Of a stretch of 64,000 bases of DNA, positions 44,371-64,000 are shown piece after piece. The notes below the pieces were generated by a model. That model ran no database searches. It was not told the origin of the DNA and was given only the letters and a program-made list of their open reading frames with translations. Source of the stretch: Microvirga massiliensis (GTDB taxonomy: Bacteria > Pseudomonadota > Alphaproteobacteria > Rhizobiales > Beijerinckiaceae); assembly GCF_001006805.1 (NCBI RefSeq), contig NZ_LN811352.1, positions 618,454-682,453 on the forward strand, in the 5' to 3' direction. How positions within the stretch are numbered: position 1 is the first letter of the stretch; the number at the start of each line of letters is the position of its first letter. The translations under genes and the position numbers were made by a program.

Positions 44371-47300
44371 TCAGAACAGCGTGTCCATTAGTGCTCTGGC
44401 CTCAGAAAGGCTGCCAATGTCTCCTTGTCCGGCAAGCTTGCCACAAATCGGAGCGAGAAGGTTGTGCGCCTTCTGATGCTCGCCTTGCTTTGCCCACAAC
44501 CGAGCCAGATCATGACTCGCACGCAATTCGGAGATGCGATCTCCCTGCTTTCGTGCGTCGTGCAGAGCGTTCGAGAGTCGCTGCTCGGCAAGTTCTTCGG
44601 GAGCAGAAGCACTCGCCATTGCGAAACGAGCCCTGTGCCTGTGCAATTCCGGTCTGATCCAGACCTCGCCTGTCGTTTCTGCGAGGACTAGCGCCTCCTG
44701 CAGCAGGCGATCCGAATGTTCCGGATCATCCATGGCGAAGCACGTCTCGGCAGCGAGCATCAAATTGAAAGGCATGTTCAGACGAAACCCGGATTGACGG
44801 TGCCGCTCAAGCGCATCGAGAACTCTGTCGAGTTCGACTGCCTCACCCATCCGGTGTGCTGCCCACAGAAACATCAGTTCACCCAGATGCCGCCACTGTA
44901 CGACGTCTCGCTCCACACAGACGTCCTTGAGCGCGGACGCTAGTCGTTTGACCTCCGTGTAGTTTCCGATGAGGGCTTCGAAGATCGAGGAGTGCCGGAG
45001 GACGAGAGCCAGGGTCAGCACGTGATCGAGGCTCCTGGCCTGATTCATTGCTTCTGCCACGAGCATGCGTGCTTGGTCGACCTCACCCAGCCTCAACTTC
45101 ACGCTGCCGAGATAGGCGACTGCCGTAATCTTCGGATCGTGTCCCAGCTCGAAAGCCAGATCAGGCGTGTAGACTGTCTCTGCGAGCTGCAGCGCCGTCC
45201 CCAGTTCCCGCTCGGCCGCAGCGAGGTCCCCGAGCCAGGACCAGCAGAATCCGACCGCCCGGTGACCGACCAAGCGGATGAGGGTATTGCCCGTGCCATC
45301 GCCGAGCGCGACGATGCGTGACGCGATCTGCAGTCCTCGCCGCAACTGCGCCGACGAGGTACAATAGCTGAACTGGGCGAAGAGCAGCGGCAGAACCCGA
45401 TCGGCTGCCCCGAATTCCTCGCACAGGGCGAGCGCTCTCTCTGCGGCTTCGGCGGTGCGCCGGCTTGCAAATCCGACGGACATCAGCACCGGGACAGTGG
45501 CGAGTTGTACATCGAGCTCGAGCCGCCTGCGCCTCTCGGCATCGGGCAGGTCTCCGAGATCGCGAAGCGCGCGGTCGAAGCACCGGATTGCCTCTGCATT
45601 CGCGCCGCGTCGCGCATTGCGCTGCCCGGCCGTCAACCAATGTCTGGCGGCCGCTTCAAACTCCCCGGCCTCCTCGTAATGATAGGCAAGGACCTCTGGA
45701 GACACTGCGGATCCTTGCTCCGCTTCCTGCTCGAGAACCTCGGCGATACGTTGGTGCACCGACCTTCGCCTCGATCTGAGCAGGGTCTCCTGAGCAGCAT
45801 CACGTAGGAGAGCATGCTTGAAGGTATATTTTGCCTCTGGCGGGGTGCCTCGCCGAAAGATGAGTTCGGCCGCGGCGAGACGGGCCGTGGCGCGAAGCAG
45901 GTCCGTTTCGGGAAGCAACGTGACGGCGGCGAGCAGCGCATGGTCGAACTCTCGGCCAATGCAGGCGGCGACTTGTGCCACCTCCTTTGCTGGCCCCAGG
46001 CGGTCGAGCCGTGCAATCAGCGAACTCTGCAGCGATGACGGAACGGCGGCTCCGGATTGCCGAAGACCATCGTGGCCGCCGGCCCTTTGCGCGTCTAGGA
46101 CGGCCTTCGTCAGCTCCTCTGCGTAGAGCGGCACGCCTTCCGCACGGTCCAGGATCTCTTTCATGACGTTGGCAGTCAGCAGTGCGCCAGCGACGTCGGC
46201 GGCGATCTGCGCGGTCGCCTCACGGGAAAGACGACTGAGAGACAGACGAGTGACCTGCGGATGGGTGCTCAGCGCCGGTGGGTTATCCGGGCGGCTGGTG
46301 AAAAGGATGAGGGCGGGTGCCTCGGAGGTCCGGCCGAGAGCCTGATCGAAGAGTTCGAGCGTCGTCGGGTCGAGCCAATGGGCATCTTCGACGACCGCCA
46401 GCACCGGCTTCCGTCGTGTCAGTCCCAGAAATTGATCGAGCAAGGCCTCGAATGTCAGCTCTCGACGCTGTCGAGGCGTTGCATCGGTCGTGACTTGATC
46501 AACATCCACGAGGCCCGTGTCGGCCGCGATCAGTGTCAGCGCATCTTCATCCAGGTCCACTACCTGTCGGAGCAGGAAGCCGAGTTTCGCCAGTCGCGCA
46601 TGCGCGTCGTCGTCCGGAACGATACCGGCAGCGAACCCCAACTGCTGTCCCACGGGCCAAAGCGCCCGGTCGGTGTGGAGCGGCGAAGCCTGATAACGAA
46701 GGCAGACATAGTCCTTCTCTTGCAGGATATCGACGAGCGCCCGCACGATTCTGGACTTCCCGATTCCGGCTTCGCCAAGGAGAAGGATGCCTTGCCCCTC
46801 GCCGGCACGCGCTTGGCGCCATCGCTGCAGGAGCAGCGCGAGCTCGATCTCGCGCCCGACAAGCGGTCGGATGGTGTTGGAGCGTGCGTCGAACCGGCTC
46901 GTTCCGATCTTTTCTGCGACTAGCCTGTGCAAACTGACTGGCTCCGCGATCCCTTTGAGCATGGCAGAGCCGATATCTTCAACCTCGAAAAGGCCGCTCA
47001 CGAGCCGCGCCGTCCGCTCGTCGATCACCACGCCTCCCGGCGTGGCTAGGGCCTGCAGCCGAGCGGCAAGGTTCGGAGCCTCGCCTACTACCATCCGCTC
47101 ACGCGCTTCACCTCGCCCGACGAGGTCACCGACGACCACCAGTCCAGTTGCAATGCCGGCTCGGGCGGCCAGTGCCGCGCCCGACGGCGTCACGAGGTCG
47201 GGGACGGTCGCCACGACACTGAGACCTGCTCGGGCTGCCCGCTCGGCATCGTCCTCGTGCGCCTGCGGCCAGCCAAAATAGACGAGGACCCCATCGCCCA

Positions 47301-47718
47301 TGAACTTCGCGACATAGCCGTCAAAACGCGCGACTTCGCCTGCCACCCGGTCCTGGTAGGCGCGGATCAGCTCGCCCATCTTCTCGGGATCGAGGCTCGC
47401 AGCCAGTGCTGTCGATCCGACTAGATCGACAAACATGACGGTGAGTTGCCGGCGTTCCGCGTGCTCCTCCACATCGGGCGTTTCACGCAGCGTGTGAGAA
47501 ACAGGATTAGGAGGTGAAAATGTCGTTGGGCCGCTGGCTTCGCCGAGAGCCGCTATGGCGGCGAGGAGTCGCTTGCGATGGCCCAGCGATGCGACACCGA
47601 TGTCGCGGAGGTCTTCCGCAGTGAGTGTGGACAGCAGAGCCACATCGATGTCGTTATCGCGAAATGCTTGCTCGTATTGGCCCAGGCCTAGGGAGTTGAG
47701 CCAGACCGCAAGATCCAC
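44371..47718 (-). CDS. SAM - class III cyclase - AAA ATPase - TPR-like signalling protein
   Basis: A 1,115-residue protein. The GTG at 47718 has GGAGAGGAAC just before it. Residues about 1-60 form a SAM domain (WLNSLGLGQYEQAF). A class III cyclase domain covers about 88-250: metal aspartates D98 (FVDLVGST) and D142 (KFMGDG), K138, N216 and R220, with E213 where adenylate cyclases often have Asp (VGEAPNLAARLQ). An AAA/STAND-like ATPase follows (Walker A GEAGIGKS, 315-322; VVEDAHW Walker B), then a long helical, TPR-like C-terminus. Such multidomain cyclases are common in Bradyrhizobium relatives. Probably a soluble cAMP-producing signal integrator; the ligand is unknown. Confidence 0.87.
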   Translation of the reverse strand: MDLAVWLNSLGLGQYEQAFRDNDIDVALLSTLTAEDLRDIGVASLGHRKRLLAAIAALGEASGPTTFSPPNPVSHTLRETPDVEEHAERRQLTVMFVDLVGSTALAASLDPEKMGELIRAYQDRVAGEVARFDGYVAKFMGDGVLVYFGWPQAHEDDAERAARAGLSVVATVPDLVTPSGAALAARAGIATGLVVVGDLVGRGEARERMVVGEAPNLAARLQALATPGGVVIDERTARLVSGLFEVEDIGSAMLKGIAEPVSLHRLVAEKIGTSRFDARSNTIRPLVGREIELALLLQRWRQARAGEGQGILLLGEAGIGKSRIVRALVDILQEKDYVCLRYQASPLHTDRALWPVGQQLGFAAGIVPDDDAHARLAKLGFLLRQVVDLDEDALTLIAADTGLVDVDQVTTDATPRQRRELTFEALLDQFLGLTRRKPVLAVVEDAHWLDPTTLELFDQALGRTSEAPALILFTSRPDNPPALSTHPQVTRLSLSRLSREATAQIAADVAGALLTANVMKEILDRAEGVPLYAEELTKAVLDAQRAGGHDGLRQSGAAVPSSLQSSLIARLDRLGPAKEVAQVAACIGREFDHALLAAVTLLPETDLLRATARLAAAELIFRRGTPPEAKYTFKHALLRDAAQETLLRSRRRSVHQRIAEVLEQEAEQGSAVSPEVLAYHYEEAGEFEAAARHWLTAGQRNARRGANAEAIRCFDRALRDLGDLPDAERRRRLELDVQLATVPVLMSVGFASRRTAEAAERALALCEEFGAADRVLPLLFAQFSYCTSSAQLRRGLQIASRIVALGDGTGNTLIRLVGHRAVGFCWSWLGDLAAAERELGTALQLAETVYTPDLAFELGHDPKITAVAYLGSVKLRLGEVDQARMLVAEAMNQARSLDHVLTLALVLRHSSIFEALIGNYTEVKRLASALKDVCVERDVVQWRHLGELMFLWAAHRMGEAVELDRVLDALERHRQSGFRLNMPFNLMLAAETCFAMDDPEHSDRLLQEALVLAETTGEVWIRPELHRHRARFAMASASAPEELAEQRLSNALHDARKQGDRISELRASHDLARLWAKQGEHQKAHNLLAPICGKLAGQGDIGSLSEARALMDTLF

Positions 47719-48021
47719 GTTCCTCTCCGCCAGAGATACACCCGCCCAGCTCGCAGGCACATTATAGCAGCCCGAGCCGGACTCGTGACAGGAGTAGACG
47801 CCTGGATTTGCGGGGATCGCTTTTAAAGCGTTCCTCGGTCCGCATGGGGAAGACGCCTGATAACTACTTTGGTCACGCCTCCGACTTGGTCGGCCGAAGC
47901 ACTAAACCGATGTCGGACGTGCGGATATCGCATTGTCCCTGTTGAAGCCGCGACTGGTCACTGAACAATGAGGCAAGAGACGGTCCAGATCTGACATATC
48001 CGATCACCAGAAATGCGATCT

Positions 48022-51638: not shown

Positions 51639-52616
51639 GTGCTCGTCTACATGATCCGGCGGGTCAGCCAGTCGCTTCTGGTCGTCGCCGTTATGGCGTC
51701 GCTCGTCTTTCTCGCCGTCTTCGCGGTCGGCGATCCGATCGACATTCTCGCCAACCCGAATGCGGACCAGGCCGAGCGCGCGGCCATCGCGCAATCTCTC
51801 GGACTCGACCGTCCTCTCTACGAGCAGTTCGGCCTCTTCGTCGTGAACGCCCTGCAGGGCGATCTCGGGCGATCCTTCGTCTACAACCTGCCGGCAATCG
51901 ACGTGATCCTCGAGCGGCTTCCGGCCACCTTGGAGCTCGCGCTCGTCGGGCTTCTGTTCTCGATCGGAATCGGCATCCCGCTCGGCCTCACAGCCGGTCT
52001 GAAACCGGAATCCTGGGTCGGCCGCACGATCATGTCGGGGTCGATTCTCGGCTTCTCGCTGCCAAATTTCTGGATCGGCCTGATGCTGATCCTGCTCTTC
52101 GCCGTCGAGCTGCGGATCCTTCCGGCCGGAGGACGCGGACCGACGACCAGCCTGTTCGGAGTCGAGCTCGCGCTCTTCACGCTCGAAGGTTGGAAGCACC
52201 TGATCCTCCCGGCCTTCACGCTCGCTCTCTACAAGGCTGCGCTCGTCATTCGGATCGCGCAGGCAGGGACGCGTGACGTGATGCTCCAGGACTACATCCG
52301 CTTTGCCCGCGCGAAGGGATTGTCGCGCTCGCGGATCATTTCCGTTCACGTTCTCAAGAACATCCTGATCCCGGTGATCACCGTGCTAGGTCTCGAGCTC
52401 GGGTCGATGATCGCCTTCGCGGTGGTGACCGAAACCGTCTTCGCCTATCCCGGCATGGGGAAACTTCTGATCGACTCGATCAACCGCCTCGATCGCCCGA
52501 TCATCGTCGCCTACCTGATGCTGACGGTGCTCATCTTCGTCATCATCAATCTCGTGGTCGATCTGCTCTACGCAGCGGTCGACCCGCGCGTGCGGCTCTC
52601 CGAGGCGCGGGGCTGA
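51639..52616 (+). CDS. Peptide ABC transporter permease (DppB type)
   Basis: A 325-residue inner-membrane protein with about six membrane segments. The N-terminus MLVYMIRRVSQSLLVVAVMA and the EAA-like coupling loop DYIRFARAKGLSRSRIISVH are typical of DppB/OppB. LGRSFVYNLPAIDVILERLP fits the conserved periplasmic loop. It forms the channel with the DppC-type partner, which starts 5 bases after its stop. The start codon is GTG. Confidence 0.92.
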   Translation: MLVYMIRRVSQSLLVVAVMASLVFLAVFAVGDPIDILANPNADQAERAAIAQSLGLDRPLYEQFGLFVVNALQGDLGRSFVYNLPAIDVILERLPATLELALVGLLFSIGIGIPLGLTAGLKPESWVGRTIMSGSILGFSLPNFWIGLMLILLFAVELRILPAGGRGPTTSLFGVELALFTLEGWKHLILPAFTLALYKAALVIRIAQAGTRDVMLQDYIRFARAKGLSRSRIISVHVLKNILIPVITVLGLELGSMIAFAVVTETVFAYPGMGKLLIDSINRLDRPIIVAYLMLTVLIFVIINLVVDLLYAAVDPRVRLSEARG

Positions 52617-52621
52617 ACGGC

Positions 52622-53566
52622 ATGGCCGATACCGCCGACACCGGCCATCCCATCCTCGCCGAAAACGATCGGCCACCGCGGACTCTCGAAAGGAGCGAGA
52701 GCCTGCTCCGCCGGCACGTCTCGACCTTCTTCAGCAGTCGCGGCGCAGTCGTCGCGCTCGCGGTTCTCGCCGCCGCCATCGTCCTTGCAGTCGGCGCCCC
52801 GTTCTTCGCGCCGCAGAACCCCTACGACCTGACGCAGCTCGATATCCTCGACAACATGCTGCCGCCCGGGGAAGCCCTTGCCTCGGGCAAGACGGCCTGG
52901 CTCGGAACCGACGACCAAGGCCGCGACATGCTCTCGGCCATTCTCTACGGCCTTCGGATCTCGCTGTTCGTCGGCGCGGCGTCGGTGTTCTTCGCCTCGC
53001 TGATCGGGGCTTCCGTCGGCGTGCTCGCCGCCTATGCGGGCGGACGCATCGAGTCCCTCGTGATGCGGATCGTCGATCTGCAATTGTCCTTCCCCGCGAT
53101 CCTGGTTGCGCTCGTCCTGCTCGCCATCTTCGGTCGCGGCGTCGACAAGGTCATCCTCGCCTTGGTCGTGGTGGAGTGGGCCTATTACGCCCGCACCGTG
53201 CGCGGCAATGCGCTCGTCGAGAAGGGCCGGGAATACATTGAGGCGGCGCGGTGCCTCGCTCTGCCGCGATCGCGAATCGTATTCCGGCACCTCCTGCCGA
53301 ACTGCCTGCCGCCGCTGATCGTCGTCGCGACCGTCCAGATCGCGCGGGCCATCGCGCTCGAATCGACGCTGTCGTTCCTCGGGGTTGGTGTTCCCGTTAC
53401 CGAGCCGTCGCTCGGCATGCTCATCGCCACCGGCTACAACTACCTGCTCTCCGGCAATTACTGGATCTCGACCTTCCCGGGCGTCGCTCTCGTGATCGTC
53501 ATCGTCGCGATCAATCTCGTCGGAGACCGGCTGCGGGATGTGCTCAATCCGAGGCTCGCCCGATGA
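52622..53566 (+). CDS. Peptide ABC transporter permease (DppC type)
   Basis: A 314-residue inner-membrane protein. The N-terminal OppC-N region precedes six membrane segments. LGTDDQGRDMLSAILYGLRI and the coupling loop YIEAARCLALPRSRIVFRHL are diagnostic for DppC/OppC. It pairs with the DppB-type permease. The last bases overlap the ATG of the first ATPase gene (ATGA), showing tight translational coupling. Confidence 0.92.
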   Translation: MADTADTGHPILAENDRPPRTLERSESLLRRHVSTFFSSRGAVVALAVLAAAIVLAVGAPFFAPQNPYDLTQLDILDNMLPPGEALASGKTAWLGTDDQGRDMLSAILYGLRISLFVGAASVFFASLIGASVGVLAAYAGGRIESLVMRIVDLQLSFPAILVALVLLAIFGRGVDKVILALVVVEWAYYARTVRGNALVEKGREYIEAARCLALPRSRIVFRHLLPNCLPPLIVVATVQIARAIALESTLSFLGVGVPVTEPSLGMLIATGYNYLLSGNYWISTFPGVALVIVIVAINLVGDRLRDVLNPRLAR

Positions 53567-54549
53567 GTCCGGTGCTCTCCGTCCGTGAACTCGTCGTATC
53601 CTTCACGACCCGTGATGGTCCGGTCACAGCAGTCGCCGGTGTGTCCTTTGATGTCGGACGCGGCGAGGTGCTCGGGCTTGTAGGCGAGTCCGGCTCTGGG
53701 AAATCGGTTACCGGCCTTGCGGTGCTCGGCCTGATCGATCCGCCAGGACAGATTACACGAGGGTCGATTCGTCTCGAAGGCGAGGAGCTCGTCGGCCGCC
53801 CGGAGGACGAACTGCGACGTCTCCGCGGACGCCGGCTCGCGATGATCTTCCAGGATCCGATGAACACCCTGAACCCGGTGCTCCGGATCGACACCCAGAT
53901 GATCGAGGCGATCTGGGCCCATGAGCGGGTCTCCGAGAAGGCGGCCCGCGATCGTGCCTGCCGCGCCCTGATGCAGGTCGGAATTCCATCACCCGAGGAG
54001 CGGCTGCGCGCCTATCCGCATCAGTTCTCCGGAGGCATGCGCCAGCGCGTCGCCATCGCGACCGCCCTCCTCCATCGCCCGGCCGTTCTCATCGCCGACG
54101 AGCCGACGACCGCGCTCGATGTCACGATCCAGTCCCAGATTCTCTCCGAGGTGCAGCAGCTCTGCGAGGAATCCGGGACCGCGATGGTGTGGATCACGCA
54201 CGACCTGTCGGTTATCGCCGGCCTCGCGGATCGTGTCGCGGTGATGTACGCCGGTCGCATCGTCGAGACGGGCAGTGTCGCCGACACGCTCGAGCACCCG
54301 CTCCACCCATACACGGCCGGCCTCATCGGTTCCGTTCCGAGCCGCAACCGCCGCGGCGAGCCCCTCGCCCAGATCCCGGGAATGACGCCGTCTCTCGCGA
54401 ATCTCCCGCCCGGCTGCCCCTTCGCGCCGCGCTGCAGCTATGCGACTGCGACCTGCCGGGGCATCATGCCGGATGCGGTCGAAATCCAGGCCGGCCGCAA
54501 CGTGCGCTGCCATTATCCGCTCGGCGTCGTGGCGCCGGAAGCGGCCTGA
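53563..54549 (+). CDS. Peptide ABC transporter ATP-binding protein (DppD type)
   Basis: A 328-residue cytoplasmic ATPase with intact motifs: Walker A GESGSGKSV, Q-loop in MIFQDPMNTLNPVLR, signature FSGGMRQRV, Walker B VLIADEPTTALDV and H-loop WITHDLSV. The C-terminal oligopeptide domain has LHPYTAGLIGSVPSRNRRGE and the cysteine pattern CPFAPRCSYATATC, which in relatives can bind an Fe-S cluster. It energises the importer together with the DppF-type protein. The ATG overlaps the permease stop. Confidence 0.93.
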   Translation: MSPVLSVRELVVSFTTRDGPVTAVAGVSFDVGRGEVLGLVGESGSGKSVTGLAVLGLIDPPGQITRGSIRLEGEELVGRPEDELRRLRGRRLAMIFQDPMNTLNPVLRIDTQMIEAIWAHERVSEKAARDRACRALMQVGIPSPEERLRAYPHQFSGGMRQRVAIATALLHRPAVLIADEPTTALDVTIQSQILSEVQQLCEESGTAMVWITHDLSVIAGLADRVAVMYAGRIVETGSVADTLEHPLHPYTAGLIGSVPSRNRRGEPLAQIPGMTPSLANLPPGCPFAPRCSYATATCRGIMPDAVEIQAGRNVRCHYPLGVVAPEAA

Positions 54550-54559
54550 CGGATCGATC

Positions 54560-55600
54560 ATGGCCGAGCCGATCATCGCCCTCCATGACGTGTCGAAGCG
54601 CTTCGTCAGGTCGCTCGACGCCGCCGAAAAGGTCGCCAATCTTTTCGGCGCGGGCCTCAAGGAGCAGGTCGTCCAGGCCGTCGACGACGTGACCCTCTCG
54701 ATCGCCGAAGGAGAAGTGCTCGGGCTCGTCGGCGAATCGGGATGCGGGAAGTCGACGCTCGGGCGCATCGTCGCCGGCATTCTCGAGCCGAGCTCGGGCG
54801 AGGTTCGCTTTCAGGGTCGCCGGGTCGCGGATCTCGGAAGAGAAGACCGGCGCGCTGCAGACCTCGCGGTCCAGATGGTCTTCCAGGATCCGATGGCCTC
54901 TCTCAACCCGCGCCGGCGCGTCGTCGAGATCATCGGGGAAGCTCCGGTGGTGCACGGCATCGTCCCTTCCGCAAATGTCGAGCAATACGTGGCGGACATG
55001 ATGGCCCGCGTCGGTCTCGATCCCGCGATCCGTCGACGTTACCCGCATCAGTTCTCAGGGGGACAGCGCGCACGGATCGGTATTGCGCGCGCGCTCGCCG
55101 TCAACCCGAAGGTCCTCGTCTGCGACGAATCCACCGCGGCGCTCGACGTCTCGATCCAGGCGCAGGTGCTCAACCTGTTCATGAAGCTGCGGGCCGATTT
55201 CGGGCTGACCTATCTGTTCGTCAGCCATGACCTCGGCGTCGTCGAGCACATCGCGGACCGCGTCGCGGTCATGTATCTCGGCCGCATCGTCGAGCTCGCA
55301 CGGACCGATGCGCTGTTCTGCGAGCCGAACCACCCCTACACGCGCGCCTTGCTCGAGGAGGTGCCCCGCCTCGAACCACGGAAGAAGCGCTTCTCGGCGC
55401 TCAAAGGCGAAATCCCCTCGCCTCTCCACCCGCCGTCCGGCTGCCATTTTCATCCGCGCTGCCCATTCGCGCATGCACGGTGCATCGTCGAGCGCCCGGC
55501 CCTGAAGGAGATCGCACCCGGGCGCCATTCGGCCTGTCATCTGAACGACGAGGCACCATCACCCGGCGCAATGCCGCCGTCGCAATTCGCGGCGACCTGA
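54560..55600 (+). CDS. Peptide ABC transporter ATP-binding protein (DppF type)
   Basis: A 346-residue ATPase. Walker A GESGCGKSTLG, signature FSGGQRARI, Walker B VLVCDESTAALDVS and H-loop FVSHDLGVV are intact. The C-terminal HPYTRALLEEVP-like region and CHFHPRCPFAHARC pattern match DppF/OppF. It heterodimerises with the DppD-type ATPase, whose gene ends 10 bases upstream. A Gln/Pro-rich tail ends the protein. It is the last gene of the importer operon; a repeat-rich gap follows. Confidence 0.92.
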   Translation: MAEPIIALHDVSKRFVRSLDAAEKVANLFGAGLKEQVVQAVDDVTLSIAEGEVLGLVGESGCGKSTLGRIVAGILEPSSGEVRFQGRRVADLGREDRRAADLAVQMVFQDPMASLNPRRRVVEIIGEAPVVHGIVPSANVEQYVADMMARVGLDPAIRRRYPHQFSGGQRARIGIARALAVNPKVLVCDESTAALDVSIQAQVLNLFMKLRADFGLTYLFVSHDLGVVEHIADRVAVMYLGRIVELARTDALFCEPNHPYTRALLEEVPRLEPRKKRFSALKGEIPSPLHPPSGCHFHPRCPFAHARCIVERPALKEIAPGRHSACHLNDEAPSPGAMPPSQFAAT

Positions 55601-55937
55601 TGATTGATGCAGAGGGCAGTTCGGACCCACTGCCGTCAATGCGAACCGCAGGCGCAACGCATTGCCCGTCTCATCGCCTCACCGTCCACGCGCGCCTCAG
55701 GCGCAATGCACTGCCCCTTCCGCCGCCTCACCGTCTTTGCGAGCCGGAGGCGAAGCAATCTACCCGTCGACGGATGCGCACCTGCATCGCTTCACTGCGT
55801 TCGCAATGACGAAGAGGGCGTGAGGGCGCGGAGGACGGCCGGAAACGGAACGAAGCGCCAGACCCTCTGAGTCATTACGAGCCGCAGGCAAAGCAATCCT
55901 AGGAATCAGGCGTAGACAGTAAGACCACCCATTCACG
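55601..55937. other. Repeat-rich intergenic region
   Basis: About 335 bases with no gene. Several imperfect units share CGCAGGCGCAA and GAGGCGAAGCAATC motifs (about 55645, 55700, 55740 and 55880), including the 40-base element shared with the murJ-MFS gap. Promoter function for either convergent neighbour is not expected, since both genes end here. Confidence 0.65.
55737..55776 (+). repeat. 40-base dispersed repeat, copy 2
   Basis: Matches 26525-26564 at 39 of 40 positions, 29 kb away. Similar but shorter units surround it, and CGCAATGACGAA follows in both places. Confidence 0.8.
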
Positions 55938-57065
55938 TCAGCGAGACATCACTTCCTGCGTGACATCCGCCACGGGCACGGACGGTGGTTTCTCGGGTGC
56001 TGCAATCGTCGGCGAGGGCAACACGAACGTGGGCTCGGGCACCGGTGCAACGCGCGCGTAGCGGTCCACACGCCGTACGATCTTCTCGTTGATCTTCTCG
56101 AAGAACTCCGCAACCGTGACCGACCGCCTCTTGCGCCCTTCCTTGTCGGTGAAGAGCGTACGGTTCGCCTTCGCGGCCTTGGGGAAGAGACGTGCGGCGA
56201 TCGTGTCGGGCTCCTCGTCGAGCGTGCGGAGGAAGGTCACCGCGCTGGAAGCACCGAAGAAGTGAGCGAGGTAGAGTTCCGCCTCGGACAGCTCTCGTTC
56301 GCCCTCGCTCTGGAGAGCGCGCTGCACGTCCTTGACGAGCTCGCTGGCCATCAGCGCCGAGAAATAGGGGTCCTGCCGGAGGCCCAGAACCCACTCCCGC
56401 GTCTTTTGGTCGGGGATCGTAGCAACGCCGTCTACGATCGACACGGCCTCTGCAGCGGCCGTGAAGCCGTATTGAGCCGCATGGGCCTGCACCGTCTCGA
56501 GCCAGGTCTGCTCGATGAACTGGAACAGGCCCTCGGCTGAGGAGGTCGGCGCCTTCGCGCGATAGGACAGGCTCGATTCCACATCGGCCAGGGCCATCAG
56601 ATAGACCGGATCGACGCCCGCGAGATGCGCCGCTTTCAGGATGGTCTGGACCAGCCAGCGTGGGACCGTACGCGCTCCGAACGAGACCATTTCCTGCGCG
56701 CGCGCGAGGCTCGCGGTCGAAGTGGTCAAATCATTCGGGTCCGGGAACGCTGTATCGAACAAGCTGCGAATCAGGCTCGGCGCCGCGAATACCGGAATAT
56801 CGTTGATGAGCGACTGCTCGATCGTTTCGAGCGGGATCGCCGGCGGCAATTCGAGGCCGGCCAGCTTGATCGATTCCCCGAACGGCTGCTTTGCGGGCGA
56901 CTGTGCCTTGAGGTCGGGTGCAAGAGTTGCGACTGCAGCCCCTCCCGCCCCTAGGAGCTGCGCCAATCCGAGCACGGAGCAGCCGACGATCACCTGAAGA
57001 AAGCGCCGATTCCACAGCGTGCAGTGCCGAGCGGCATCTTGTGATGCCCGTTCGTTCTTTCTCAT
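55938..57065 (-). CDS. SLT-domain lytic transglycosylase-like protein
   Basis: A 375-residue exported or membrane-anchored protein with a hydrophobic N-terminal segment (FLQVIVGCSVLGLAQLLGAG). The lysozyme-like SLT core is at about 145-240: the catalytic glutamate in ALADVESSLSYRAKA, followed by SSAEGLFQFIEQTWLETVQA. A helical region and a Pro-rich tail follow. It would cleave the glycan strand of peptidoglycan in the periplasm. It is on the same strand as, and about 210 bases downstream of, the cyclase gene, so it may belong to that unit, though the gap leaves room for its own promoter. Confidence 0.85.
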   Translation of the reverse strand: MRKNERASQDAARHCTLWNRRFLQVIVGCSVLGLAQLLGAGGAAVATLAPDLKAQSPAKQPFGESIKLAGLELPPAIPLETIEQSLINDIPVFAAPSLIRSLFDTAFPDPNDLTTSTASLARAQEMVSFGARTVPRWLVQTILKAAHLAGVDPVYLMALADVESSLSYRAKAPTSSAEGLFQFIEQTWLETVQAHAAQYGFTAAAEAVSIVDGVATIPDQKTREWVLGLRQDPYFSALMASELVKDVQRALQSEGERELSEAELYLAHFFGASSAVTFLRTLDEEPDTIAARLFPKAAKANRTLFTDKEGRKRRSVTVAEFFEKINEKIVRRVDRYARVAPVPEPTFVLPSPTIAAPEKPPSVPVADVTQEVMSR

Positions 57066-57250
57066 GCCTGTCCCGCTTGCGGTCCGGCCGACTGGCCGGA
57101 ACCTTCCCCTTGTTGGCTACAGGCATGACTGGCATCTATGTCGAGAATCGGTCAGCTTGGCGGTATCTTGGAGATCCATCCCCGAGAATCAGCCGCTTCG
57201 GGCCTCGAGCGGCTCTTCTTCGGGAGCCCGGCGTCCGGCTGGACCCTCTG

Positions 57251-57290
57251 TACTCCTACGGATGCGCCCCGACTCCTACGGATGCGCCCC
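57251..57290. repeat. 20-base tandem duplication at the cyclase 3' end
   Basis: Two adjacent 20-base units (57251-57270 and 57271-57290) differ only at the first base. The cyclase stop codon falls inside the second unit. Confidence 0.8.
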
Positions 57291-58976
57291 GTCGTTCGGC
57301 GCCTCCGCAAGATTCGAGAGATCCGGCGCGGCCACGACATCCAGCCGCTCCCTGCGACCGCGCAGGGGCACGGACCGGACCTTCCCGTTTCCGACTTCCA
57401 TCCGGGCAGACCGGAGGGTGACGCCCGAGACGACCACGGCGCTGCCGAAATCCTTGTTCAGAGCTTCGAGACGACTGGCGATGTTGACCGTGTCGCCGAG
57501 CGCCGTGAGCCCGAATCGACGGCTGCCCCCGACACGCCCGAGTACCACCGGGCCGGAATGGATGCCAATCCCGATGCGGAGGCCTCCGGGAATGGTGGCT
57601 TCGAACTCCACGTTCAGGCCATCGAGGGCGTCGAGCATGTCTCGCGCCGCCAGGAGAGCAGCCCGACTCCCGGCCCCCAGGGCCGGTGACAAGCCGAACA
57701 GGGCCATGATCCCGTCGCCCAGAAACTTGTCGACCTCCCCTCCATGCCTCTCCACCGCAGCGGACATCACCTCGAAAAATCGATTGAGGAGGAACACGGC
57801 GTCGTATGGATAGAGCCGCTCGGCGAGCGCGGTGAACCCGCGCAGATCGGCGAACAAGACCGTCACGCGCCGCTCCACGCCCCAACGATAGCGGTCCTCT
57901 CCCAACGCAGCGGCAACTTCGCGGGATGGAACGAGGGGGCGGACCGAGAGATCGCCGGCGGGATGGATCTGGCAGGCTAGGCGGATGCCGGGCGGAGCCC
58001 CGATGCGTGAAAGCGCCGCTGCCTCGACGCTGTTGGGTGGAGGGAGCTCGTCGAGACCCTGGAGAACCGCGACCCGGCAAGTCGTGCATCGGCCCCGCCC
58101 GCCACAGATCGCGGCGTGCGGCACTCCGGCCGACCGGCTGATCTCGAGAAGCGTGGATCCGGCGGCGCCGCGCACGGTCCGCCCGTCCGGGTAAGTGATA
58201 CGCGGCCCTGCCCGGAAGACCATCCAGATCCGAAACGCAAACGCTGCGCAGAGGGCGACCGCAAAAACGGCCCAGACCAGGAGTTCCGAAAGATCGACAA
58301 GACGGGAGGCCACCACGCGCATGGCATCCGTCATGGGAGGATTCGGGAGTTCGAGGAGCCGAAGGCGGCGTGCTGCCTCGATCCACCCGGTGATGGCCAG
58401 GGTCGGCACCAGGACGGCGGCGACGAGCAGGAACGGGCTCCAGCGCTCATACCAGCGCTTGGTCCTGAGCCAGTAATGCAGGCCGATGGTCCCATGAATC
58501 CAGACGACGAGCAGGAACAGCGACTGGCTCACCGCTGCGTTAGGCCAGAGGACTCGCAGGACGTTCCGGTAGCGGTCGTCATACGTCGTCAATGAGCTGA
58601 CACCGCGCGTGGCTGCGACGTGGGCGGCCCCCAGGAGCGGAATCAGCAGCCCGGACCCGATCTGCAGACCTTCCCACGCCGTCATGCGCCACGTACGCCG
58701 CCGAACGAGCTTCGACAGTACGAGGGAGACGTGCACTGCGAGAGCGCCGTACAGGAGCATCGTGCCAGGCCAGGAGCGCCAGAATCCGCGCCGGACCTCC
58801 TGGACAGCCTCCATCCATGGCACCGAGACGAGCCCGAGGGAGTGGTTGAGGAAGTGCGTTACCGCAAAGATGAACAGGACCAGCCCGGAGCCCAGGCGCC
58901 AATTCTGGGCATTCAACACCGCCGCCAGCGAAGACCAGGATGGAGGCCGGCGGCGCCGATGCCTAAACGGGCGCAC
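57276..58976 (-). CDS. Redox-sensor adenylate cyclase: cytochrome-b-like membrane domain, 2Fe-2S domain, class III cyclase (CyaC-like)
   Basis: A 566-residue protein. I chose GTG 58976 because GGAG lies seven bases upstream; a TTG at 59078 overlaps the upstream gene. Residues about 25-255 hold six membrane segments with histidines at 41, 45, 82, 119, 161 and 167, resembling succinate dehydrogenase cytochrome b anchors. A ferredoxin domain at about 259-345 has cysteines 291, 297, 300 and 335 (CGGRGRCTTC). The cyclase domain has metal aspartates D377 and D421, K417, D495, N498 and R502, a full adenylate cyclase set. CyaC of Sinorhizobium meliloti, a quinone/heme-regulated cyclase, is the nearest system I know. 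It likely makes cAMP in response to membrane redox state. Confidence 0.87.
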   Translation of the reverse strand: MRPFRHRRRRPPSWSSLAAVLNAQNWRLGSGLVLFIFAVTHFLNHSLGLVSVPWMEAVQEVRRGFWRSWPGTMLLYGALAVHVSLVLSKLVRRRTWRMTAWEGLQIGSGLLIPLLGAAHVAATRGVSSLTTYDDRYRNVLRVLWPNAAVSQSLFLLVVWIHGTIGLHYWLRTKRWYERWSPFLLVAAVLVPTLAITGWIEAARRLRLLELPNPPMTDAMRVVASRLVDLSELLVWAVFAVALCAAFAFRIWMVFRAGPRITYPDGRTVRGAAGSTLLEISRSAGVPHAAICGGRGRCTTCRVAVLQGLDELPPPNSVEAAALSRIGAPPGIRLACQIHPAGDLSVRPLVPSREVAAALGEDRYRWGVERRVTVLFADLRGFTALAERLYPYDAVFLLNRFFEVMSAAVERHGGEVDKFLGDGIMALFGLSPALGAGSRAALLAARDMLDALDGLNVEFEATIPGGLRIGIGIHSGPVVLGRVGGSRRFGLTALGDTVNIASRLEALNKDFGSAVVVSGVTLRSARMEVGNGKVRSVPLRGRRERLDVVAAPDLSNLAEAPNDGAHP

Positions 58977-59055
58977 GCGATGCTCCTGAGCGGTTTCCAG
59001 GCCTCCGTTCGCGGGGTGGTTTGAAACGTTGTCGTCCCCTGCCCGCGCAGGGGGA

Positions 59056-59502
59056 TCACGGTCGAGATTGCGCGGCAAGCTGGGCGTTCGTGCGTTCGAG
59101 CCGGTTGGCGAGCTCCCGCATCACTGCGAGCGACATTTGGGGAAACTGGGCGAGCAACTCCAGGAATACACGCTTGTCGATCCGCAGAGCGGTCGTGGAT
59201 TCCGAGGCCGTGACCGACGCGGAACGTGGAGTCTCGGACAGGATACCCATCTCTCCCACGAGCGCATTCTGGCCAAGATCCGCAACCTTGATCTCTCCGG
59301 CAGGAGAATTCAGCAGCACGGAAGCGCCTCCTTCGAGGATCACATAGGCGGCATCGGATGGATCTCCCTGAGAGAAGAAGCGCTGCCCTTCCGCGAATCT
59401 CACCCGCTCGCTCGTGAATGCGAGGAGCTTGAGCCGGGCCGGGTCGATCTCACGGAACATCGGCACCTGCCGCAGGGACTGAACTTCCGTGTCGAGCGTC
59501 AT
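59056..59502 (-). CDS. Stand-alone cyclic-nucleotide-binding domain protein
   Basis: A 148-residue protein consisting of one cNMP-binding beta-barrel and flanking helices, without a helix-turn-helix. The phosphate-binding cassette VGEMGILSETPRSASVTA keeps E84, R93 and S94, the residues that contact the ribose and phosphate of cAMP in CRP and PKA. FAEGQRFFSQGDPSDAAYVI is the conserved first half. GGAGG precedes the ATG. It starts 15 bases after the ABC-like gene and is followed by the adenylate cyclase, so a local cAMP receptor role is likely (inference). Confidence 0.9.
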   Translation of the reverse strand: MTLDTEVQSLRQVPMFREIDPARLKLLAFTSERVRFAEGQRFFSQGDPSDAAYVILEGGASVLLNSPAGEIKVADLGQNALVGEMGILSETPRSASVTASESTTALRIDKRVFLELLAQFPQMSLAVMRELANRLERTNAQLAAQSRP

Positions 59503-59517
59503 TCGTTTCCTCCGGGC

Positions 59518-62208
59518 TCATTCCGCCGCCTGGGCGGATGTTTCGGACCGGCCGTGAGCGCCGTTCCTCGTTGTCACGTCGACTTTTCCGTTCTCGCAGC
59601 GCAGCTGAACCGTGAACGGCTCTGCGCGCGCCGCAGTCGGGACAACCACGAAAAGGGTGCACTTCTCGCAAGTCTCGATCAGGACTTTGACCAACCGCCC
59701 GGCGCGTGTTTCATCGAATGGCGCCAACGCCCCGTCGACGACCATGATCTCCGGCTGCTTCACGAGGCATCTCACCAGATTGATGCTCGCACGCTGCTGG
59801 GCCGTCAGGAGACGGCCGGCGGGACCGACCTGGTGGTTGAGGCCGATTCGCTCGATGGGCTCGCGCAGACCGAGTTCCGAGACGACGGCGGAGACGGCTT
59901 CCGCCACGCGGGTCTGTGCATTCGCGACCTGGTAGTTGACTCGTCCGAATAGAAGGTTGTCACGGAGAGGTGCGGCCGCGCAGACCGCATCCACGTCGTA
60001 GAACTCCACGCCGGGACTTCCGCGCCGTTCGAACATGGTTCGAATCGGACGGCGAACGGACACGATGCGGTGGCGGAGATCGTCGTCGAGGAGGCCCAGG
60101 CGGTGGCGGGGCTCCACATATCCGAGCGGCAGCGCGAGGAGGCGCTCCTCATCCGTCTTCGGCAGCTTCCGTCCTTTGGAGTGCCGGCGGACAATATTCT
60201 CGAAATCCTGCAGCTCGTCGGCGCCGATGAACGAGAACTGCTCGAAGAGCGAGTGGCCCGGTGGAAGGCCGCGGAAGATTTCCGTCATCGTCTCGGCGAT
60301 CCGCAAGCCCATCACCGTCAGGGGGGCGATGAGATTTGCCCGGTCGAGCACCTCCCGGACGCCCTGATGCGCGGCAAGGTTGCGCCCGGCCAGCTCCCGC
60401 CGGGTGGGAACGCCGAACAGAATGTTCTCGGCGACAGTCGCCTGATTATTGTAACGGTCCGGATCGAAAGGCTCGACGAGATCCTCCATGCCGGAAGACT
60501 GAAACACTTCCCTGAGTCGGGATCGCGCCTCGACGAGGCGCTCGGCGAGCTTGCGATGGCGGTCCGGATCCACCATGCCGGAGAGGCCATATCGGTAGAT
60601 GTCGTCCTGCAATCCGACCTGGTGCAGGAGATCCAGCAAGTGGTGATCCAGCTCGGTCTCATCGCGAAGCCCGATCGACTCGAAGTCGACCCATCGGTCG
60701 GCAATCGAGTCGAGCGGATTCCCCGTCCATTTTGCCTCCGCGATCCAGCGTGCAGCGTCCTTCGCCGACAGCTCGGCCTTCGCGACTGGACGGTGGCGCA
60801 GACCATAGACGAGATTGTCCCGAATGGTCCCGGGGAACAGAATCGGGTCCACACCCGCATACGAGATACGCCGCCCGACAACCGGTTCAGGGATTCTGAC
60901 GAGATCGTTCCCTCCGATCGTCAATCGGCCGCCGAACTGCATGGTCCGCCCCGCGAGAATGCGTGCCAGTTCGCTCGCTGTGGCCGTTCCGTCCGAGATG
61001 ATGGCGGCCTGGACGGGGAGCTGGAGTTCGAAGGAAACATGATCGAGGATCGGTGCCCCGTGCGCGTCCATGACGCGCAGATCTTCGGCGACGAGGGGAT
61101 TACCCAATGTCGCATCCTCGTCCACTTCGATCGTCTGCTGCCCGTTCAGCAGGCGTTCCGGCGAGAAGTGCTGAACGACTTGGTCATACTTCACCTGGAC
61201 ATCGAGTCTCTGCTGGTCCCAGTCGATCAGCTCCTTCAAGGGAGGCGGCAATTCGCGATAGGCCGCGATGACGGCCACCAGCTGCCCGATATCGAGGGTT
61301 CCGCGCAGCGCGAAGAAACCGCCGACGGAATAGAACAGGAAAGGCGTGAGCTGCGACAGGAAGTTGTTCAGGAACTTGACGATGAACTTCCGCTTGTAGA
61401 TCCGAAACCGGACATCGAAGAGTTCATACAGGCGTTGCCCGATCTCGGCGCGCTCCCAGGCACTCGTATTGTGCACGTGCACGGCCTCGAGGCCGTCGGA
61501 AACTTCGGCGACCCTCCCAGCGAGACGCCGGGATGCGAGCTGGCGCTTCTTCCCGAGACGAAGAAGCTCTCTCCGGAGCCTCGGAATGATCACGAATTGG
61601 GCTCCGACGACCACCATCGCCATCAGACCCAGCCAGATGTTCTGAATCATGATGAACCCCAGCGCGGTCAGCGCCTGGGTTCCCAGAAAGACCGGCGTGA
61701 TGAAGGCATCGCCGATAAATCCTCCAATCGGTTCGACCTCATCCTTGATGATGGTCGCAGTCTCGGAGGACTTGACGGTGCGCTGCGCCTGGGGAGTGAA
61801 GCGCAGTACCATCGCAAAGAGCTCGAAGCGCATGCGGCGGAGCATCCGCTCGCCGAGCGCACCTTTGGCGACATTGATCCAGTATTTGAACCCGCCATTG
61901 ATGATCACGAAGACGAGGAAGACGAGTGATAGGCCCAGGAGAAGACCGAGCCGGCCAACCTCGAACCCACCGAAATGGAGCAGCCGCTGGCCTCCGAGGA
62001 ACCCGGGCAACGCGACCGTGATGTCCAGGAATGGTGCGACACTCTTCCCGTCGACGAAGGCGGTGCCCTGGATCGCTTCATTCACGATCCGGCGAGGCAG
62101 GTCGAGCGACATGAAATAGAACGGCTGCGACAGGAGCACGACCGCGCAGACGATGAGCTGCTCGCGTTTGGAGTGCTGCCAGATATAGCGGAACAGGCTC
62201 TTGTCCAT
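59518..62208 (-). CDS. ABC-exporter-like membrane protein with degenerate, enlarged nucleotide-binding region
   Basis: An 896-residue protein. Residues about 1-330 form an exporter-type six-helix membrane domain with a coupling-helix-like stretch (VAEVSDGLEAVHVHNTSAWE). In the nucleotide-binding part, the Walker A position reads IISDGTATASEL (403-414) with no GK[ST]; the signature is LTAQQ (801-805); Walker B keeps D825 but has G826 for the catalytic Glu; the H-loop histidine is missing (VVVPTAAR). About 290 extra residues separate Walker A from the signature. Three segments resemble the post-Q-loop motif: TIRDNLVYG (461), TVAENILFG (591) and PLRDNLLFG (747). It probably cannot hydrolyse ATP normally. 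First gene of the cAMP cluster. Confidence 0.85.
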   Translation of the reverse strand: MDKSLFRYIWQHSKREQLIVCAVVLLSQPFYFMSLDLPRRIVNEAIQGTAFVDGKSVAPFLDITVALPGFLGGQRLLHFGGFEVGRLGLLLGLSLVFLVFVIINGGFKYWINVAKGALGERMLRRMRFELFAMVLRFTPQAQRTVKSSETATIIKDEVEPIGGFIGDAFITPVFLGTQALTALGFIMIQNIWLGLMAMVVVGAQFVIIPRLRRELLRLGKKRQLASRRLAGRVAEVSDGLEAVHVHNTSAWERAEIGQRLYELFDVRFRIYKRKFIVKFLNNFLSQLTPFLFYSVGGFFALRGTLDIGQLVAVIAAYRELPPPLKELIDWDQQRLDVQVKYDQVVQHFSPERLLNGQQTIEVDEDATLGNPLVAEDLRVMDAHGAPILDHVSFELQLPVQAAIISDGTATASELARILAGRTMQFGGRLTIGGNDLVRIPEPVVGRRISYAGVDPILFPGTIRDNLVYGLRHRPVAKAELSAKDAARWIAEAKWTGNPLDSIADRWVDFESIGLRDETELDHHLLDLLHQVGLQDDIYRYGLSGMVDPDRHRKLAERLVEARSRLREVFQSSGMEDLVEPFDPDRYNNQATVAENILFGVPTRRELAGRNLAAHQGVREVLDRANLIAPLTVMGLRIAETMTEIFRGLPPGHSLFEQFSFIGADELQDFENIVRRHSKGRKLPKTDEERLLALPLGYVEPRHRLGLLDDDLRHRIVSVRRPIRTMFERRGSPGVEFYDVDAVCAAAPLRDNLLFGRVNYQVANAQTRVAEAVSAVVSELGLREPIERIGLNHQVGPAGRLLTAQQRASINLVRCLVKQPEIMVVDGALAPFDETRAGRLVKVLIETCEKCTLFVVVPTAARAEPFTVQLRCENGKVDVTTRNGAHGRSETSAQAAE

Positions 62209-62371: not shown

Positions 62372-63637
62372 ATGCCGGAATCCACCAAGCGAGGATCTCC
62401 CGGAGGGAATTGGCGGCCTGATCCGCGCCCTGCTCGAGTTCTCATCTACAGCCACGATACGTTCGGGCTGGGACATCTCCGCCGCTCCCGCGCCATCGCC
62501 AATGCCATTGTCGAGCAATGGCCCGGGACCTCGATCCTCATCATCTCGGGCTCCCCAGTCATCGGCAGTTTCGATTTCGGCAGCGGTGTCGATTACGTAC
62601 GGATCCCTGGCGTCACGAAGCTGCCGGATGGCGACTACCGGAGCCTCAACCTCAACGTTCCGATCGATGACGCAGTCGGGTTGCGGCAGGCCTTGATCCT
62701 TCGGGCAGCACAGAGCTTCCGTCCGGATGTCCTGATCGTCGACAAGGAACCGACGGGGTTCCGGGGCGAGATCCTGCCGGCGCTGGAATATCTGAGAACG
62801 CATGGCTGCCGTCTGGTCTTGGGAATCCGGGACGTCATGGACGAGGCTGGATTGCTGGTGCCGGAATGGGAGCGGAAGGGTGCGCCGGAGGTCCTCGCCC
62901 GCTACTATGACGAAATCTGGGTCTATGGTCTCAAGCAGATCTACCAACCTCTGGCCGCCCTTGACTTGCCGCCGACCGTCCGGGAGCGGACTATCTACAC
63001 CGGCTACATTCGCCGCGAATTGCCTGAGCCGGCAGCCCCCAACCGCTATCCGAAGATCACCCGCCAGCCCTTCGTCCTGGTGACCACGGGCGGAGGTGGC
63101 GATGGCGAAGACATGATCGATTGGGTGATCTCGGCCTATGAGAGCGATCCGGGAATGGACATGCCGGCGCTGATCCTCTTTGGACCGTTCATCAACCGCG
63201 AGCGTCGGTTATCGTTCCTCGAGCGCATCTCGCGCCAGGCCCGGCTCGACGCGCTCACTTTCGACAATAAGGTTGAGGTGCTGATGAGTCGCGCCGAAGC
63301 CATCGTCGCGATGGGAGGCTACAACACCTTCTGCGAGATCCTGTCCTTCGACAAGCGCGCGCTCATCGTGCCCCGCACGAGGCCGCGTCTGGAGCAGGCG
63401 ATCAGGGCCGTGGAGGCTGAAAGGCTTGGTCTTGTGCGTATGCTGAGTGACGAGAACGAACCAAGGACACCCGGTCGCATGGCAGCGGCTCTGCGGGCCC
63501 TCCGCAAACAGCCTCGCCCATCGGAAGTCTTCGTTCCGGGCCTCCTCGATGGGCTGGACCGCATCAAGGAGCGGTTCGGCGCGATCCTGTCGGGGACGGG
63601 GGGCGCCGCATCGGCCATCGGTCAGGCAGCCGAGTAG
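62372..63637 (+). CDS. MurG-like (GT28-type) glycosyltransferase
   Basis: A 421-residue GT-B fold protein. VLIYSHDTFGLGHLRRSRAI carries the Gly-His acceptor-side loop, and the second half has VLVTTGGGGDGEDMIDWVIS, then VEVLMSRAEAIVAMGGYNTF and IVPRTRPRLEQAIRA, the nucleotide-sugar site of the GT28/MurG group. No membrane segment is visible. It is divergent from the ABC-like gene and followed 6 bases later by another glycosyltransferase, so it likely acts in a polysaccharide or glycolipid pathway. Donor and acceptor are unknown. Confidence 0.83.
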   Translation: MPESTKRGSPGGNWRPDPRPARVLIYSHDTFGLGHLRRSRAIANAIVEQWPGTSILIISGSPVIGSFDFGSGVDYVRIPGVTKLPDGDYRSLNLNVPIDDAVGLRQALILRAAQSFRPDVLIVDKEPTGFRGEILPALEYLRTHGCRLVLGIRDVMDEAGLLVPEWERKGAPEVLARYYDEIWVYGLKQIYQPLAALDLPPTVRERTIYTGYIRRELPEPAAPNRYPKITRQPFVLVTTGGGGDGEDMIDWVISAYESDPGMDMPALILFGPFINRERRLSFLERISRQARLDALTFDNKVEVLMSRAEAIVAMGGYNTFCEILSFDKRALIVPRTRPRLEQAIRAVEAERLGLVRMLSDENEPRTPGRMAAALRALRKQPRPSEVFVPGLLDGLDRIKERFGAILSGTGGAASAIGQAAE

Positions 63638-63643
63638 CCTTCC

Positions 63644-64000
63644 ATGCTCCCAGCCGGCCCGTCCCGCCGGATCGCCGTGGTGGTCAAAGGCTACCCCCGG
63701 CTGTCCGAGACCTTCATCGCCCAGGAGGTGCTTGCGCTGCAGCGCCGGGGCCTGAAGCAGGAAATCTGGTCGCTCCGGCACCCGACGGACCCTGCGCGGC
63801 ACCCGATGCATCGTCAGATCCGTGCCCCGGTGACCTACCTGCCGGAATACTTGTACCGGGCGCCGCTCCGCGTCCTCCGCGGCGCCCTATGGTGCGCCCG
63901 TCACGCCAGGATGCGGCATACGCTTCGGGTCTTCGGGAACGATCTGCGGCGCGATCTGACCGCGAACCGCATCAGGCGGCTGGGCCAAGCCCTGGTCCTG
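63644..64000 (+). CDS. Glycosyltransferase (GT4-like), N-terminal part
   Basis: The frame runs off the right edge after 119 codons. IAVVVKGYPRLSETFIAQEV and LALQRRGLKQEIWSLRHPTD form the typical N-terminal strand-loop-helix of GT4 glycosyltransferases of the colanic-acid type (KxYPxxSETFI pattern). It starts 6 bases after the preceding glycosyltransferase, so the two are cotranscribed. The donor-binding half is outside the window. Confidence 0.8.
   Translation, partial: MLPAGPSRRIAVVVKGYPRLSETFIAQEVLALQRRGLKQEIWSLRHPTDPARHPMHRQIRAPVTYLPEYLYRAPLRVLRGALWCARHARMRHTLRVFGNDLRRDLTANRIRRLGQALVL

Follow-up and report, generated by a model that had tools for sequence, protein, structure and literature searches.

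What could bring a redox-type adenylate cyclase, a solitary cyclic-nucleotide-binding domain and an ATP-binding cassette (ABC)-like membrane protein together in one row of genes? This question is raised by a locus of Microvirga massiliensis (assembly GCF_001006805.1, contig NZ_LN811352.1) contained in a stretch of 64,000 nucleotides, positions 618,454 to 682,453 of the forward strand, hereafter called the window, whose source genome measures 9.17 Mb. The open reading frame (ORF) listing of the window contains four minus-strand ORFs in the order ABC-like protein, cyclic nucleotide (cNMP)-binding barrel, cyclase and transglycosylase-like protein. The barrel ORF starts 15 bases past the stop codon of the ABC-like gene, the presumed GTG start of the cyclase lies 79 bases past the barrel stop (the open frame itself extends to 59078), and the transglycosylase-like ORF follows another 210 bases beyond the cyclase, in agreement with the order and spacing (15, about 80 and about 210 bases) given in the initial annotation of this DNA.

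That annotation had proposed that cyclic AMP (cAMP) made locally by the cyclase is read by the barrel, which could control an ATPase-dead ABC-like protein, with a possible output at the cell envelope. Taken as a whole, this proposal is partly supported by the comparisons reported here. Its best-supported form is one in which locally made cAMP would be read by the barrel and would control the dead ABC protein, with the transglycosylase left out of the system and glycosyltransferases added to it. We consider it somewhat probable that the locus encodes a relay in the membrane from redox state to cAMP, with a pseudo-ABC protein as its target, probably in surface-glycan assembly or export.

A pseudo-ATPase with an ABC-exporter fold

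The following features were assigned to the ABC-like protein, here called the pseudo-ABC protein (window coordinates):

59518..62208, minus strand: pseudo-ABC protein of 896 aa, an ABC-exporter-fold membrane protein with a pseudo-ATPase nucleotide-binding domain (NBD) (ORF, Pfam, predicted structure, motif alignment)
60973..60996, minus strand: degenerate Walker A position, residues 405-412, SDGTATAS (motif alignment)
60301..60480, minus strand: internal repeat copy in the NBD insert, residues 577-636 (HHalign against residues 733-791)
59836..60012, minus strand: second repeat copy, residues 733-791 (HHalign)
59791..59808, minus strand: degenerate ABC signature, LTAQQR (motif alignment)
59731..59748, minus strand: degenerate Walker B, IMVVDG, with Gly at the position of the catalytic Glu (motif alignment)

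The membrane domain was recognized by Pfam as ABC_membrane (42.3 bits, above the cut-off of 28), and the NBD scored 22.3 bits with ABC_tran, below the cut-off of 25. The AlphaFold2 (AF2) model of the window protein (predicted local distance difference test, pLDDT, 86; predicted template modelling score, pTM, 0.80) is exporter-like along the whole chain (Z 24-26; structure comparisons are reported from VIA alignments). The best whole-chain match was TM287/288 (3qf4_A; Z 26.0, 433 residues, 5.5 A), and the matches include SUR2 as well as the heterodimeric exporters TM287/288 and TmrAB. The NBD, spanning residues 366-883, superposes on the NBD of ComA over 225 residues (2.4 A, Z 25.5), leaving ~290 residues extra or unmatched. 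An insert of ~260 aa in this domain holds the internal repeat, whose two copies (residues 577-636 and 733-791) were aligned by HHalign with a probability of 97.6 and an E-value of 3e-12 and share the pattern.AT..ENLLFG.; the normal Q-loop region shows a weaker similarity to the second of these (E 2e-7).

An alignment-guided scan for the pseudo-ABC protein matched at least 592 stretches, of which 524 encode a relative; the best 80 are referred to as the named loci. Walker A, Walker B, signature and H-loop are all degenerate in the window protein. Across 51 aligned rows (the window protein and those of 50 named loci out of the 80, obtained by thinning at 85% identity) a strict Walker A was found at the aligned position in 1/51, the Walker B Glu in 7/51 and the H-loop His in 0/51, and each row has at most three of the six ATPase motif features tested. 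Judged by this motif loss, the protein is a pseudo-ATPase, as the initial annotation had read it. Invariant columns are concentrated in the membrane domain (65/345, compared to 2/105 and 6/155 in the two NBD lobes and 9/260 in the insert), which includes QLVAVIAAYRELPPPLKELIDWDQQRLDVQVKY at residues 309-341. By this measure the membrane part is what selection holds and is under strong constraint.

No second copy of the gene was found in the window's genome, in which the next matches reach only 20-35% local identity; the closest named relatives belong to Microvirga (64-66% identity). The gene is also present on plasmids of nitrogen-fixing symbionts. In the annotated records examined, the parts are named only as "ABC transporter ATP-binding / transmembrane domain-containing protein", "cyclic nucleotide-binding domain-containing protein" or "Crp/Fnr family transcriptional regulator".

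The barrel and its linkage to the pseudo-ABC protein

59056..59502, minus strand: cNMP-binding barrel, 148 aa (Pfam; fused homologues in nine loci)
59218..59256, minus strand: cyclic-nucleotide contact motif GEMGILSETPRSA (motif reading)

The barrel scored 69.8 bits with Pfam cNMP_binding and carries the contact motif, confirming the stand-alone cAMP-type domain initially described. Pfam shows the barrel alone in the 148 aa, with no C-terminal DNA-binding domain of the CRP/FNR regulators.

The named loci come mostly from Microvirga, Methylobacterium, Chelatococcus, Reyranella and other Alphaproteobacteria; three are betaproteobacterial loci from metagenome-assembled genomes (MAGs; L144, L154, L155) and may be binning errors. 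A Pseudomonadota-wide search found the pseudo-ABC protein in 27/349 genomes, all listed matches being alphaproteobacterial. Using a family hidden Markov model, a barrel was detected directly downstream on the same strand in 59/80 named loci, in 29/29 fetched type-A loci of the window's family and in 26/29 of the best class-wide loci other than the window's, compared to 0/40 control windows; these sets overlap, since 7 of the 29 family loci and 2 of the 29 class-wide loci repeat a named record. In seven genome loci (L068-L071, L073, L076 and L149; Pfam was run on two of them) a single ORF spans both genes, and in two plasmid loci, of Azospirillum thermophilum and Ruegeria, both profiles match a single frame. 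The fused barrel stands C-terminal of the pseudo-ABC part. By gene order the two form one unit, with a linkage far above chance, and because of the conserved order and the fusions the barrel is very likely a subunit or domain of the pseudo-ABC protein.

The barrel-less loci of the Methylobacterium group, together with Phreatobacter L120, are L109, L111, L113-L117, L119-L125, L127, L128, L130-L132 and L134. Many relatives also carry a second paralogue of the pseudo-ABC protein (type B, 23-43% identity), which was set aside from the counts. Type B paralogues at L057, L060, L061, L063 and L065-L067 have no barrel; at L057, L063, L066 and L067 the next ORF is MBL-hydrolase-like, and in some of these a Glycos_transf_4 (WecA/MraY-like) ORF is present (Pfam was run on the L057 pair only).

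The CyaC-type cyclase

57276..58976, minus strand: CyaC-type membrane redox adenylate cyclase with 566 aa, counted from the presumed GTG start (41% identical to the annotated CyaC of Sinorhizobium meliloti)
58209..58907, minus strand: cyclase membrane anchor, with His 75, 116, 153 and 195 as heme-ligand candidates (invariant, 15 rows)
57960..58187, minus strand: 2Fe-2S (Fer2) domain (Pfam; Cys 325, 331, 334 and 369 invariant, 15 rows)
57354..57869, minus strand: class III cyclase catalytic domain, with D411, K451, D455, D529, N532 and R536 present (Pfam, residue reading)

The cyclase matched Pfam Guanylate_cyc (69.2 bits) and Fer2 (31.3 bits), and its identity to S. meliloti CyaC extends over 544 columns. 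H75, H116, H153 and H195 as well as C325, C331, C334 and C369 are invariant in 15 aligned rows that include S. meliloti CyaC. The catalytic set (DKDDNR) is complete, and K451 and D529 fit ATP rather than GTP. Read from its sequence, the protein is a CyaC homologue with redox and catalytic residues intact and with predicted heme binding, in line with the redox cyclase proposed at the outset. A second CyaC-type copy, unlinked and 58% identical, is present in the window's genome. S. meliloti CyaC has been described as a quinone-responsive enzyme with six transmembrane helices, a 2Fe-2S cluster and two heme B groups (PMC10463352).

Co-occurrence of the pseudo-ABC protein and the cyclase

In a class sample of 289 alphaproteobacterial genomes drawn evenly, the pseudo-ABC protein was matched in 98/289, of which 97 were counted (G008, having type B only, was removed). 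CyaC-type matches were present in 79/289, distributed as 74/97 genomes with the pseudo-ABC protein vs 5/192 others (odds ratio 120, Fisher 1e-41, kinship ignored). Five of these matches are partial (G208, G226, G363, G377 and G432), some lying at contig edges, and the open frames of G208 and G226 are without the cyclase part. All five fall in genomes with the pseudo-ABC protein, so that without them the distribution becomes 69/97 vs 5/192. In the window's family, full-length CyaC-type matches were found in 46/55 genomes with the pseudo-ABC protein vs 11/94 others (kinship again ignored), five genomes with type B alone being scored as without it.

Some class III cyclase domain was found in the flanks of 14/29 and of 15/80 loci, vs 0/40 controls (flanks of named loci at most 10 kb per side; control windows ~18.6 kb in total), and also in the flanks of three chosen rhizobial loci, two of them from S. 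meliloti. Cyclases of other architectures also occur at these loci. Linkage of a cyclase to the unit of pseudo-ABC protein and barrel is thus supported by gene neighbourhood.

Five genomes with the pseudo-ABC protein (G037, G051, G075, G109 and G131) have no full-length CyaC-type match and contain proteins matching the membrane and Fer2 part only (query ~36-395). In these proteins the same redox sensor may serve a different output.

Joint state of linked cyclases and barrels

Wherever a locus has both a barrel and a linked CyaC-type cyclase, the catalytic residues of the cyclase were scored together with a strict barrel motif (E, R, S/T and A of GE......PRSA). Among the 24 loci, 13 pairs were canonical in both partners, 11 were altered in both and 0 were mixed; after removal of duplicate records, 9 canonical and 10 altered pairs were left. 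N532 and K451 are missing in 11/11 altered cyclases, and the altered barrels L072 and L140 retain Arg and lose S/T and Ala. The four principal histidines and the four cysteines persist in 24/24 linked cyclases. In a sample of unlinked CyaC-type copies, consisting of 14 hand-picked copies and S. meliloti CyaC, D411, D455, N532 and R536 are kept in 15/15, and six differ at K451 or D529. The altered loci, ten of them distinct, form one clade in the tree of the pseudo-ABC protein (62 rows), comprising Bosea, a Xanthobacteraceae MAG and other family members. This pattern suggests that, where the linked cyclase stopped making nucleotide, the barrel was freed to drift, with redox sensor, barrel fold and pseudo-ABC protein kept. 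At the level of sequence, the joint state and the co-occurrence favour a cAMP link between the two.

A candidate redox-to-cAMP relay and its alternatives

Architecture, conservation, fusion, motif loss, co-occurrence and coupled states, as read from the sequences, are consistent with a relay of the following form. By homology to S. meliloti CyaC, the cyclase would use its heme/2Fe-2S part to sense the redox state of respiration and would produce cAMP. The contact motif, and the joint state of barrel and linked cyclase, suggest that the small barrel would bind this cAMP; the initial prediction to that effect fits the class-wide co-occurrence (74/97 vs 5/192) and the joint states (13/11/0, with 2 mixed by a looser rule). 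Control would then run from the barrel, as putative regulatory subunit and in some lineages part of the same polypeptide, to the pseudo-ABC protein. Because the exporter-type membrane domain is constrained and the normal ATPase motifs are gone, the latter would most likely be a cAMP-controlled scaffold, channel or flippase working independently of ATP, and not a pump. Judged from the neighbourhood, the output would probably lie in the assembly or export of surface glycans, at a step carried out by the adjacent glycosyltransferases.

Several observations weigh against this relay. The barrel is absent in 21/80 named loci (19 of Methylobacterium, one of Phreatobacter and one lake MAG), and 23/97 genomes with the pseudo-ABC protein in the class sample have no CyaC-type match. 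The cyclase lies within ~2.1 kb of the pseudo-ABC gene in just 18/46 family genomes having both (distances read from coordinates) and next to it in 1/21 Microvirga records. A scan for promoters and terminators stayed at chance level (for promoters, 1 site vs 0.9 expected), and the co-occurrence statistics treat genomes as independent of phylogeny. Regarding the joint states, Arg is lost in only 7/11 altered barrels; in the barrels of L053 and L074, Glu, Arg and Ser remain and Ala to Ile is the sole deviation, so that a looser rule leaves 2/24 pairs mixed; and since the altered loci stand on one branch and represent one joint change, they yield no usable p-value and carry qualitative weight. 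In the literature, Clr and CycR are described as interaction partners of S. meliloti CyaC (PMC10463352), and ppGpp (guanosine tetraphosphate), not cAMP, as the ligand of the cNMP domain of HetC (PMC10986499).

It seems unlikely that the pseudo-ABC protein is one half of a heterodimeric exporter, with an intact half encoded elsewhere supplying the ATPase and the barrel acting as accessory regulator. TM287/288 and TmrAB, among its structure matches, are heterodimers with one degenerate site; other ABC exporters are present in G000; and at L192, a Rhizobium plasmid locus, exporter-like genes lie ~9 kb downstream of the pseudo-ABC gene. However, exporter-like ABC genes were found beside it in 0/80 named and 0/29 family loci, with 1/6 plasmid loci and 1/40 controls (tblastn E 1e-15, 330 aa), and a protein with all four motifs degenerate and a ~260-aa insert in its NBD fits poorly with such a half.

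Quite unlikely, too, is a barrel that reads another ligand (e.g., ppGpp) or has a structural role, with the cyclase being a neighbour that serves general CRP-type signalling. The ligand of HetC, the partners of S. meliloti CyaC, the frequently unlinked cyclases and the two barrels that retain a nearly full motif beside an altered cyclase would agree with it, but not the 0/24 mixed pairs under the strict motif, nor the strong class-wide co-occurrence. It is also opposed by the barrels without a linked CyaC-type cyclase, in which the motif is canonical in 69/75 and four of the other six differ only by GD for GE.

Improbable, and the weakest of the three, is a co-occurrence due to shared lifestyle, genome size or ancestry with no functional link: the statistics ignore phylogeny and genome size, and the coupled change is one event, but cytochrome bd, a respiratory control of similar prevalence (111/289), shows no association with the pseudo-ABC protein (43/97 vs 68/192, p 0.16), and some of the loci show physical linkage.

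A further-reaching form of the redox-to-cAMP relay can be put forward tentatively. Here the ATPase-dead ABC-exporter fold would be a dedicated cAMP effector, working without ATP and gated by the barrel, separate or fused, according to the respiratory redox state, and in the altered lineage the relay would be turning into pseudo-enzymes throughout (redox sensor with a dead cyclase, altered barrel, dead ATPase), signalling by direct contact without nucleotide. If true, CyaC-type redox cyclases would gain a membrane effector besides transcription, and bacteria one more kind of cAMP effector, and the separate, fused and catalytically altered relays would provide a natural series for how a second-messenger step is lost while the pathway persists.

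Comparison with known systems

Among the papers listed by full-text searches, with most subscription journals outside their coverage, none appeared to describe the combination of pseudo-ABC protein, barrel and CyaC. SUR, an ABC-fold regulator of KATP channels, comes close in being an ABC protein that acts as a regulator, and SUR2 was also matched by structure. The NBDs of SUR bind nucleotides, whereas the pseudo-ABC protein is without nucleotide-binding motifs and has a cAMP-type barrel as its partner. The whole-chain fold is shared with the ABC exporters TM287/288, MsbA and PglK, from which the pseudo-ABC protein differs by the degeneration of all four NBD motifs and by ~260 extra residues with an internal repeat.

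S. meliloti CyaC and the window cyclase are alike in having a membrane anchor with conserved histidines, a 2Fe-2S domain and a cyclase domain. They differ in their partners: S. meliloti CyaC is reported with the transcription regulators Clr and CycR, whereas the linked partner of the window cyclase is a barrel without a DNA-binding domain, together with the pseudo-ABC protein. In one clade, unlike in S. meliloti CyaC, the cyclase linked to the pseudo-ABC protein has lost catalytic residues. HetC of Nostoc, a PCAT ABC exporter, likewise joins a CRP-type ligand domain to an exporter chain; its cNMP domain is N-terminal and binds ppGpp, its ATPase is essential and a C39 peptidase is present (PMC10986499). 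In the pseudo-ABC protein, by contrast, the barrel is C-terminal or separate, the ATPase motifs are degenerate and Pfam gives no C39 match.

Neighbouring genes

62372..63637, plus strand: divergent glycosyltransferase of GT28-C type, conserved locus member (Pfam, neighbourhood comparison)
63644..64000, plus strand: glycosyltransferase of GT4 type, extending past the window end, conserved locus member (Pfam on the L083 homologue)
55938..57065, minus strand: SLT-type transglycosylase-like protein, genus-local neighbour outside the module (Pfam, neighbourhood comparison)

Homologues of the GT28-type gene are present in 54/80 and those of the GT4-type gene in 51/80 named loci (at least 45% identity, within 10 kb), usually divergent; the piece of the GT4-type gene inside the window has no Pfam match. 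The glycosyltransferases, which had been taken together with the transglycosylase as a hint to an envelope output, are thus conserved locus members, and the transglycosylase part of that hint did not hold.

The transglycosylase-like protein scored 23.4 bits with SLT, weak but above the cut-off of 21.3, and E163, which we take to be the catalytic Glu, is invariant in 6 Microvirga-type rows. As a component of the module it was rejected: it lies beside the pseudo-ABC gene in 20/21 Microvirga loci and in 0/59 others (tblastn E 1e-5). The complete four-gene set was found in 0/80 named loci, and L093, the sole Microvirga locus with the cyclase, has no transglycosylase match. The neighbourhood comparison of the four families suggested by the initial annotation therefore upheld the pairing of pseudo-ABC protein and barrel, far above chance, and supported the cyclase, but reduced the transglycosylase to a genus-local neighbour.

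Annotated rhizobial clusters add a cyclase, a four-gene peptide-type ABC importer and a third glycosyltransferase, and the S. meliloti cluster additionally has a polysaccharide lyase and methyltransferases. In Rhizobium esperanzae a CyaC-type cyclase is located ~26 kb away, adjoining a GT4 gene and a polysaccharide deacetylase. For the wider region in S. meliloti, smb20804/20805 are reported in passing to affect a Kdo-type capsule (PMC5539429), and another study refers to SMb20813 as an msbA homologue (PMC10945364). The pseudo-ABC match on pSymB of S. meliloti 1021 is split over two frames (NC_003078.1 841723-844429; L190:14001-16707), and the corresponding region of S. meliloti Ak57 is an unannotated gap; in several further S. 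meliloti records the match is unbroken. A DUF3095 protein is encoded near the R. esperanzae cluster (L293:24848-26023, Pfam), and a similar-looking ORF was seen by eye at L157:17731-18879.

Within the window, a further class III cyclase-domain protein (SAM, cyclase, AAA; 1129 aa) is encoded at 44371-47760 on the minus strand, ~8 kb from the transglycosylase gene. What appears by eye to be an oligopeptide-type ABC importer operon occupies 51639-55600 on the plus strand, ending just downstream of the module, and importers of a similar type recur in conserved clusters. Finally, two 49-base tandem copies, 76% alike, lie at 55633-55730 in the intergenic region downstream of the transglycosylase gene.

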